Shown: in pieces, positions 5,238 to 8,189 of the stretch
Layout of the letters: each line of letters opens with the position of its first letter
How positions within the stretch are numbered: the stretch's first letter is position 1
NCBI GenBank assembly: GCA_027485995.1
Contig: JAIXPW010000043.1
Coordinates: forward strand, 1 to 64,000
Reading direction: 5' to 3'
Origin: Verrucomicrobiaceae bacterium
GTDB taxonomy: Bacteria > Verrucomicrobiota > Verrucomicrobiia > Verrucomicrobiales > Akkermansiaceae
Length of the DNA: 64,000 bases
Notes under the pieces: model-generated
Told to the model about the DNA's origin: nothing
The model's input: only the letters and a program-made list of their open reading frames with translations
Databases searched by the model: none
Translations under genes and position numbers: made by a program

Positions 5238-8189
5238 ATGGACGATCTCTTCTCCACCCCGATCACCCGGATCCGCCAGTTGCGCCACGAACTGGCGCGC
5301 CACAACCGGCTTTACTACACCGACGCCGCGCCGGAGATCTCGGATGCGGAGTATGACCGGCTCTACCGCGAACTGGAAGATTTGGAGGCAAAGCATCCGG
5401 AATTCGCCGACCCAAACTCGCCCACCCGACGCGTCGGCGGTGCCCCCATCGACGGCTTCCAACAGGTCACCCATCTGGTGCCGATGTTGAGCATTGATGA
5501 TGTGTTCGAGATCAAGGACGCCGAAGTGCCGGAGACAGAGCTGATCGATTTCTACAAACGCCTTCAGAAAAACCTCGGCCGCGAGAGCGTCACCGTAACG
5601 GTCGAGCCCAAGATCGATGGCGTGGCCGTCTCGCTGGTCTATCGGAATGGCCAACTCGACTATGCTGCCACCCGTGGTGACGGCACCACCGGCGACGACG
5701 TGACGAACAATGTCCGCACGATCCGGAGCATTCCGCTGGAACTGCATCGCAGGGCCGCCTCCGAGCAGCCCGTTGACCTCGCAAGCATCCTCCCCTATCT
5801 TCCACCTTATGAACGCAGCGACTCAAGCCCAGCAGCTCGCGGAACGCCTGCGCAAGGCACGGCTGAAAGCCTCCGACAGAAACTCGCCAATGACCTATCA
5901 GCAAGCGATGGAGCAGATGTTCAGAAACGGCTCCGACAGGAAGCCCAATCCATTCTTGAATGGGGAGCTGACGCTGGTCGGATTATCGATCCAAGACGAT
6001 TCCACAATATCGTCAAAGGCTGGCGGGAACTAGGTGGCCAGTCCGAGCACACCGTTTTTTATCTCGAGGAACTGAAGCGTGTCGTCAAATTCACGCTCCC
6101 TCCTTACTTCGGAGCACAGGGAAGCATTGCTTATCTCCAAAACATAGCATCCTGCAACCGGCTGTTCGGTGACGACATCCAGTTCCACGGAATCCTGGAA
6201 ACTGCGGAGGGTCCTGTATTCGTGGTGTCCCAACCTTTCGTCGACGGATCGGCGCCAACGATTGAAGAAGTACACGAATGGTTCATCACCAACGGCTACA
6301 GATCGATTGGTCACAACCGATGGAAGGATGATTCCGGAACTGAAATTGCCGATGCGCATATTGGCAACCTCATCAAGACGTCCGACGGAGAATTGATCCC
6401 GATCGATCTTCAAGTGCTGACCGAAGGCGATCTCCCCAATCACCAATCCCCAATCCCCAATCCCCAATTCCCCTCCCTCCTCGAAGTCCGCGGCGAGATC
6501 TTCATGCCGAACGAGGCCTTCGCGGCGATGAATGCGGAGCGCGATGAGCAGGGTCTGGCCACCTTTGCAAATCCCCGAAATGCCACCGCCGGAACGTTGA
6601 AGCAGCTCGATCCGAAGATCGTTGCCCAGCGACCACTTGCCTTCCTTGCCCACGGACTCGGAGCCTACGAGGGACCTGAACTTCCGAGTGAGCATGACTT
6701 TCACGCCCTGCTCGATTCGCTCGGCATCCCGAGAAACCAGCCGGTCTTCACCGTCTCGACGCTCGACGGTCTGTTAGAGGCCGTGGCGAAGATCAATCAT
6801 GACCGCCACCACCTCGGCTACGGCACCGACGGCGCAGTGGTGAAGGTCCTCGACCGACGCGAACGCGAACAACTCGGCTACACTTCGCGCGCCCCCCGCT
6901 GGGCTGCCGCCTACAAGTTCCTGCCCGAGCAGAAGGAGACCCGGCTGCATTCGGTCACCGTGCAGGTCGGGCGCACCGGCGTTCTGACCCCGGTGGCGGA
7001 GCTCGATCCGGTGCTCGTTTCCGGCACCACCGTTTCCCGCGCCACGCTGCACAACGAGGAGGAGATCCAGCGCAAGGACATCCGGCTCGGCGACACGGTC
7101 ATCATCGAAAAGGCAGGCGAGATCATTCCAGCGGTCGTGAAGGTCGTGCTGGAGAAAAGATCTCCGGACACCAAGCCATTCTCGCTCTTCGACCACGTCG
7201 GCGGTCAGTGCCCATCGTGTCACGGACCGATCTCGAAGGAGGAGGGTTTCGTCGCGTGGCGCTGCACCAACTTCGAGTGCCCGGCGCAGGCGGTTTCCAA
7301 GATCAAGCAGTTCGCCTCGCGCAAGGCACTCGACATCGAGGGCCTCGGCGAAACCGTGGCGGAGGCGCTCGTTTCCCGGGGCATCTGCCGCACGCCGCTG
7401 GATCTGTTCGAACTCAACGAAGCCACCCTCGGCAGCCTGAACCTCGGCACCGACGAGGAACCCCGACGCTTCGGAGAAAAGAACGCGGCGAAGGTGATCG
7501 AGGCCCTGCAACAGGCCCGCACGAAGCCACTTGCCCGCTGGCTCTACGCGATGGGCATCCGCCAGGTCGGGGAATCAGCGGCGAAGGAGCTATCGCGGCT
7601 GCATGCGAATCTGTTGGAGCTTTCGCAAAGCCCGATCCTTCGGGTCATTCAGGAAATCTCCAAGTTGGATGCAGAACGTAAAAGCATATCTCCACGCAAT
7701 AAGGAGAATCCCCCAAGGACCGATGAGGAGAAGGTCAGACGGCAGGTTGAACATGAAGAGCTGAAGCGCCGAATTGATGGCCTGACAGCCCAGATTTCAG
7801 CTTACCAGGTCTCGCCGGATGCAGGACAGGTTGTGGCGGAGTCCGTGCTGGCCTTCTTCGCCTCCGAAGCTGGACATCATGTTCTGGAGCGGCTTCGGGA
7901 ACTCGAATTGAATCCGGCCTCCGCCAACTATCTTCCCAAGGCCGCCGAGGTGGATCTGTCCGCGATGCCACTCGCTGGTAAGACTTTCGTGCTGACGGGA
8001 ACGCTGTCGATCGACCGTGATGAGATGAAACGGCTCATTGAGGAAAAGGGCGGCAAGGTGTCCGGCTCGGTGTCTGCGAAGACTCACTTCGTCGTCGCGG
8101 GTGAAGGCGGTGGCTCCAAGCGCGACAAGGCGATCCAGCTCAAGGTGCCGGTGATCGACGAGGATGCGGTGCGTGCGATGATGGGCTGA
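5238..8189 (+). CDS. ligA: NAD-dependent DNA ligase with in-frame kinase-like insertion
   Basis: LigA seals nicks in DNA using NAD+. The order seen is domain Ia ([17 protein letters not shown]), the adenylation domain with KIDG (catalytic Lys at about residue 125), OB fold, a four-Cys zinc finger (CPSC from about residue 658, then CTNFEC), helix-hairpin-helix repeats and a C-terminal BRCT domain (about 910-983). At about 983 residues it is far longer than the usual 670-700. The excess comes mainly from about 238 residues (about 174-412) placed between SIPLEL and [10 protein letters not shown], which are adjacent in ordinary LigA, plus a smaller charged insertion in the HhH region that may be lineage-typical. 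All core motifs remain in frame. A start at 5214 is possible; the ATG at 5238 (MDDLFSTP) fits the family better. Confidence 0.9.
5757..6475 (+). other. Inserted polyvalent-protein-type kinase domain within ligA
   Basis: This segment of the ligase reading frame resembles the small Ser/Thr/Tyr kinase-like domain found in polyvalent proteins. It has an N-terminal helix with [26 protein letters not shown] as the first strands, VVKFT with the probable ATP lysine, [13 protein letters not shown], then [11 protein letters not shown] as hinge, and a catalytic-loop-like [15 protein letters not shown] followed by IPIDL. It sits exactly where LigA has a surface loop between two strands of the nucleotidyltransferase domain. 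The right edge is a period-7 tandem array. The left edge reads like former intergenic sequence and an old gene start (ATG at 5810, in another frame). The most natural reading is a once separate gene that landed in ligA in frame. Whether the kinase is active is unknown. Confidence 0.65.
6436..6470. repeat. Five-unit period-7 tandem repeat inside ligA
   Basis: Five head-to-tail 7-base units: CCAATCA, three CCAATCC, then CCAATTC. It lies at the right junction of the kinase insertion in ligA and encodes a short Pro/Asn/Gln linker. Because 7 is not a multiple of 3, gain or loss of one unit would break the ligase frame. A related CCCAATCCCCAAT sequence lies near the end of the fecR-like gene at about 4121. 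Confidence 0.85.

Follow-up and report, generated by a model that had tools for sequence, protein, structure and literature searches.

The window, meaning the whole 64,000-nucleotide stretch of DNA under analysis, carries on its forward strand one open frame of 991 amino acids at 5214-8189. It encodes an otherwise complete NAD+-dependent DNA ligase (LigA) with an embedded kinase-like domain, as judged from the open frame, Pfam, and alignment with E. coli LigA (2owo). Pfam matches all parts of LigA, comprising Nlig-Ia, the adenylation domain in two stretches, OB, C4 zinc, HhH, and BRCT, and the nucleotidyltransferase motifs and every LigA domain are present in frame. The first ligase part (5214-5756) contains the NAD+-binding domain and the opening portion of the adenylation domain, including motif I, KIDG (Lys133); E131, P132, K133, D135, and G136 form invariant columns across 80 LigAs. 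An in-frame insert of residues 182-420 (5757-6473), absent from ordinary LigA in the alignments, separates it from the second ligase part (6474-8189), which supplies the remaining adenylation domain (LEVRGE), the OB fold, the C4 zinc finger, HhH, and BRCT, all on the forward strand. The alignment with 2owo stops at E. coli residue 161 (window residue 179) and resumes at E. coli residue 164 (window residue 419), so that about 239 residues occupy a loop only two residues long in E. coli, directly ahead of the LEVRGE strand inside the adenylation domain. A preliminary description of this DNA had claimed an in-frame insert at 5757-6475 with ligase motifs continuing in frame on both sides; the insert is confirmed with coordinates right within a codon or two, and the Pfam domains and the resumed alignment bear out the continuing frame.

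The insert begins with a 5' tether (residues 182-215; 5757-5858) that varies between species and is mostly of low confidence in the structural model. The folded part (5859-6422) comprises N-terminal helices and a Kinase-PolyVal core, with a Pfam match over residues 277-399 (6042-6410), and a 3' tether (6423-6473), in which the heptamer CCCAATC repeats in tandem at 6449-6467, leads back into the ligase. The AlphaFold2 model of the whole protein retains the ligase fold, its Foldseek matches being 2owo and other LigAs, with low confidence in the tethers (pLDDT <50 at residues 181-186, 200-214, and 408-417) and a pTM of 0.53 that makes the domain arrangement unreliable. Third-position GC of the inserts averages 0.59, against 0.77 and 0.75 in the two flanks, and in 37 of 39 genomes it is lower than in either flank.

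Several smaller features accompany this arrangement. The 3' linker consists of tandem heptamers, seen as CCCAATC in the window and as IQNSKFKI-type peptides in other LigAs, and the kinase-less loops of some LigAs (G173, G020) still hold peptides similar to this linker. A 19-base pattern of the heptamer repeat occurs at four places in the window's genome. An overlapping +1-frame gene at 5710-6033 was considered and rejected, with the other forward frames of the inserts open for only ~65-95 codons (median) and showing no sign of conserved overlapping coding. The helical hairpin of the HhH region (~7680-7800, residues 823-862) is longer than in most relatives of the genus, and the matches of relatives to the window LigA mostly break at query 403-440 (HhH-region hairpin).

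The kinase-like character of the insert, proposed earlier from its motifs, is upheld by both profile and structure. PF18762 (Kinase-PolyVal) matches residues 277-399 with an E-value of 3.7e-9 in the whole protein and the insert alone with 2.9e-10 (40.8 bits, curated cut-off 27), and it matches all 53 aligned kinase-domain members (E up to 0.01). An AlphaFold2 model of the insert built from the alignment of 53 relatives reaches a pLDDT of 84 and a pTM of 0.81, and its nearest solved folds are protein kinases with middling Z-scores of 6-7, OspG (6.6) and NleH (6.4) among them. These two also resemble it in their reduced C-lobe; the likeness concerns the general fold only, with no sequence match, and OspG and NleH differ in being secreted effectors. 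Among viral models, the best match is a tailed-phage polyvalent protein (E 3e-13, 28% identity), and another top match is a 'PolyVal' kinase of an Ackermannviridae phage. Together with the PF18762 matches, these phage hits corroborate the suggested polyvalent-protein kinase type. No match was returned by a PDB sequence search with the kinase profile, by tblastn of the insert against phage and plasmid collections, or by PHROGs, and PADLOC produced chance-level matches only, none convincing.

Kinase-PolyVal comprises kinases of phage and conjugative-element polyvalent proteins, and the kinase passages of Iyer et al. 2017 (PMC5512222) describe a conserved Glu near strand 2, a Gln at the N-lobe end, a missing C-lobe, and a catalytic His separated from the Asp by an insert. 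The inserts share with the family, as characterized in those passages, the profile match, the missing C-lobe, and the invariant Glu and Gln; their phylum is that of many members which the passages describe, and copies standing alone also exist (PMC5512222). Specifically, E97 and Q159 (the Gln of the SQP strand at the end of the N-lobe) are invariant in 53 sequences, and the model contains no helices after the DFG-like Asp (insert residue 217), ending near residue 222, with the usual C-terminal subdomain missing. H186 is His in 34 and Tyr in 5 of 39 LigA inserts and varies elsewhere, its equivalence to the catalytic His of the family being unsure.

The catalytic set K, D, N, D is conserved in 38 of 39 LigA inserts. 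In the window it consists of the N-lobe lysine Lys292 (VVKFT; 6087-6089), which is Lys in 39 of 39, the catalytic-loop pair Asp380 and Asn385 (IADAHIGN; 6351-6368), kept in 38 of 39, and the DFG-like Asp398 (IPIDL; 6405-6407), also kept in 38 of 39. The exception is the insert of G121 (L063), in which three of the four residues are changed (D to G, N to D, D to G), and which is likely a pseudokinase. Median pairwise dN/dS is 0.33 for the insert and 0.21 for the ligase, a value that places the insert under purifying selection. On sequence and model, the insert appears to be a complete Kinase-PolyVal kinase-fold domain, catalytically competent-looking and flexibly tethered to a LigA surface loop, and its kinase is presumably active.

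Among 260 searched genomes of the family, about 45 carry the full LigA insert at the same site, in genera coded g1, g17, and g26, and three further genomes have partial inserts. The inserts are 53-96% identical to that of the window, and a survey of LigA lengths, as proposed in the preliminary description, gave host frames of mostly ~950-1090 residues, shorter at contig ends. Two other pond metagenome-assembled genomes carry inserts 96% identical to the window's. The insert is not an assembly join, because the single-contig genomes G162, G169, and G121 have the identical architecture, with one LigA found in each. The window ligA is free of frameshifts, and the search of the window's genome (84% complete, 269 contigs) turned up no other ligA; the earlier concerns about an assembly or frame error in 5.7-6.5 kb and about a dead fusion beside a normal ligA are thereby answered. 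A phylum-wide search with the Pfam model, much less sensitive than our own profile, found the domain in 9 of 388 genomes. In G151 (L115), the N-terminal ligase part and the insert with the C-terminal part lie in different frames, representing a frameshift or sequencing error. In G304 (L096), assigned to another family, the insert is present in a ligase whose first half resembles that of the window's family and whose second half does not; this ligase may be a recombinant or reflect a contaminated bin (5% contamination).

Presence of the insert is patchy. On a tree of 80 LigAs, with the insert left out of the alignment, it requires 22 changes, of which well-supported branches force at least 14, and sisters with almost the same LigA differ in carrying it (G153/G162, G138/G169). 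The insert tree conflicts with the ligase tree, the inserts of related ligases ranging from near-identical to very different. AU tests reject ligase relatives as insert clades for G022+G158 (p 1.9e-4), G012+G001 (p 0.012), G146+G171 (p 6e-40), G265+G261 (p 6.5e-4), and G155+G008 (p 9e-12), these p-values being somewhat flattering because the groups were chosen after both trees were seen. G265 groups with G014 on the insert tree and with its own genus on the ligase tree. Synonymous divergence provides a contrast independent of the AU group choice: for G004/G181, dS is 0.027 in the insert versus 0.25-0.36 in the flanks (z -6.6), and the opposite holds in G012/G001, G022/G158, and G146/G171, the insert being far more divergent than the flanks in the first two of these pairs. 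In several insert-divergent pairs, similarity resumes in the last kinase stretch (IADAHxGNLIK...PIDLQVL), which would fit a recombination arm made up of this stretch and the flanking ligase sequence.

Losses have left traces. Partial inserts are kept in G005, G019, and G018, and only linker-like pieces in G156, G178, and G173; such leftovers and scars indicate losses of the insert. The kinase is dispensable, since G121 has lost three catalytic residues and several inserts are partly deleted. Neither ligA nor nspC showed a mobility enzyme, a terminal repeat, or a target duplication.

The domain also resides in other housekeeping proteins. In the related family f4, Kinase-PolyVal forms an in-frame insert in NspC (identified by sequence as carboxynorspermidine decarboxylase, with a Pfam match to the C-terminal sheet domain) and in one GlgB near the N-terminus, and it is fused to the C-terminus of Opp/Dpp-type ABC ATPases. 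The nspC insert occupies one site in 10 of 63 genomes, and on an nspC tree of 31 of these genomes its presence requires 7 changes, at least 6 of them forced. The occupied nspC of G373 and the empty nspC of G323 are 94% identical in DNA outside the insert, which replaces a loop of about four residues, with no direct-repeat footprint evident at the junction. In G406/G313, the nspC flanks are 90-91% identical, versus only 57% for the inserts. A tree of 66 kinases places the LigA inserts in one clade (support 99) and the NspC inserts in another (94), with the GlgB copy adjoining the NspC clade and the ABC fusions elsewhere. One clade per host gene implies that capture was rare for each host and that exchange came later, among copies of the same host gene; the single LigA clade makes a single entry into ligA most likely. 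Gene capture by an essential housekeeping gene, raised in the preliminary description, is supported. The comparisons go further than that description, in that the insert is patchy and horizontally exchanged at one fixed site, and likewise at other housekeeping genes.

Free-standing relatives are common: many genomes contain solitary Kinase-PolyVal genes of 220-270 residues, along with large polyvalent proteins bearing LPD3, LPD37, or MuF. The neighbours of solitary copies are mostly ordinary genes. One copy (L164, G352:C82) has a C2c1 (Cas12b) RuvC-like gene on one side and a Cas4-Cas1 gene on the other; another (L163, G323:C19), in a type I restriction locus, comes immediately after HsdS and is itself followed by a duplicated hsdS end and a Fic gene; and a third (L103) lies beside HipBA and a transposase. 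The G323 copy is flanked by 43-base repeats derived from the hsdS end, and a copy in G017 (L101) by 64-base direct repeats, 58 perfect, at 5136-5199 and 6012-6075, 876 bases apart, suggesting that the solitary gene may insert as a unit. The window's own genome has an open frame of 1538 residues (L203, G000:C179:26878-27297) that strongly matches Kinase-PolyVal and is probably a polyvalent protein.

Comparison with known systems delimits these observations. Whereas Kinase-PolyVal is described from large phage proteins, here it resides in LigA, NspC, GlgB, and an ABC ATPase, at fixed sites, patchily, and exchanged between species; the kinase passages of Iyer et al. 2017 (PMC5512222) report no cellular housekeeping hosts. 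Inteins and homing elements resemble the insert in their in-frame position at one conserved site of an essential gene, patchiness, tree conflict, decay, and loss. The insert differs in having no Hint domain, splice-site residues, or homing endonuclease, and nothing suggests its removal from the mature protein. Membership was rejected on both counts: Pfam shows no Hint or intein profile (E up to 1) and the insert ends are variable linkers, and only the kinase family matches the insert, arguing against a homing endonuclease. Homing-like behaviour, as a likeness and not as membership, is found for both ligA and nspC, with a fixed site, patchiness, and host-independent exchange. Rickettsia palindromic elements and other in-frame coding MITEs are likewise inserted in frame and translated within the host protein; those elements are short, palindromic, and without an enzymatic fold, whereas the LigA insert has 239 residues, a kinase fold, and conserved catalytic residues. 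The prophage kinase-kinase-phosphatase operon (KKP), which provides phosphorylation-based phage defence, shares the theme of kinases in host-phage conflict, often tied to mobile elements and defence genes, but it is a separate operon, and the LigA insert is not claimed as a member (PMC11341870).

The explanation that we favour, and hold to be probable, is that a phage-conflict kinase was captured by housekeeping genes and is exchanged in an intein-like manner without splicing, with LigA serving as an ordinary-ligase carrier. The Kinase-PolyVal domain most likely entered ligA once and has since been lost repeatedly by in-frame deletion, in some cases with scars. The insert has also moved between species separately from the ligase gene around it, presumably by homologous recombination with conserved ligA on both sides and the last kinase stretch as arms. 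Capture and exchange of the same kind occurred separately in nspC, and glgB and an Opp/Dpp-type ABC ATPase gained the kinase as well. LigA may act as an ordinary ligase and a constitutive, essential carrier of the kinase. On the model proposed for the kinases of polyvalent proteins, the domain could phosphorylate a target during conflict with phages or plasmids, and its rapid turnover might reflect a shifting, frequency-dependent benefit, not a housekeeping need. The conflict role is the weakest step; it is suggested by family context, by the defence neighbours of some copies, and by a turnover that suits shifting selection.

A selfish passenger, tolerated in the loop and spreading or lost without benefit to the cell through intein-like invasion, decay, and loss, fits almost as well as a conflict kinase. 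The fixed site, patchiness, exchange, decaying intermediates, and clean losses form a pattern known for homing elements, and partial deletions mark the domain as dispensable. Because it has no endonuclease, splicing motifs, or evident drive, is under purifying selection, and retains the catalytic residues in all but one of 39 copies, we consider a passenger unlikely, though it retains a real chance. A built-in regulator, phosphorylating LigA or a replication partner and so tuning ligation, would suit the conserved catalytic residues and a tether within the adenylation domain just ahead of the LEVRGE strand; the absence of the insert from sisters with near-same LigA (G153/G162, G138/G169) and the occurrence of the same domain in NspC, GlgB, and ABC ATPases of unrelated function make this role improbable.

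The genealogical pattern bears on a third account, one ancient insertion followed by vertical descent and many losses without horizontal exchange, the conflicts being tree noise. The single clade of LigA inserts agrees with it and the scars prove losses, yet it is contradicted by the dS contrast between insert and flanks, which runs in both directions between pairs, and the AU rejections of ligase relatives and the placement of G265 render it very improbable. The fragmented genome of the window (84% complete, 269 contigs) could prompt suspicion of an assembly, binning, or frame artefact, or of a dead fusion beside a normal ligA; with about 45 genomes sharing the architecture, three of them single-contig, 96% identical inserts in two other pond genomes, and no second ligA found, the chance of this is negligible. 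The capture and exchange of a conflict kinase remains the reading we prefer.

The Kinase-PolyVal family itself is not new; what is new, as far as we found, is that it lives within several housekeeping enzymes and behaves like an intein at the population level without being spliced, the literature search, which covered few subscription journals, returning no report of such kinase insertions. Essential enzymes are thought to be poor sites for foreign domains unless these are self-excising. Here a predicted catalytic domain that stays in the protein turns over rapidly inside a DNA ligase and a polyamine enzyme, and sister species carry, lack, or swap it. Turnover at one spot in ligA and in other housekeeping enzymes is explained by no known kind of mobile element. 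Tentatively, and as a possibility short of probable, these inserts could form a new class of mobile protein domain: active kinase cassettes of Verrucomicrobiales-type bacteria that enter several housekeeping enzymes at fixed loops, always remain in the protein, and pass through intein-like cycles of invasion, exchange, decay, and loss, probably driven by conflict with phages or plasmids. The findings point to a route by which phage-conflict enzymes enter cellular proteins, and natural pairs of occupied and empty alleles, such as nspC of G373 and G323, allow a direct test of the effect of such a domain. They also caution against treating LigA as a purely vertical marker among these water bacteria.

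A separate observation concerns the C-terminus of LigA. The G016 LigA (L035) and a C-terminal LigA fragment of G007 (L056) carry a different C-terminal segment, BRCT-like by eye, with the usual BRCT in a frame of its own further downstream, a layout that resembles an exchange of the C-terminus.
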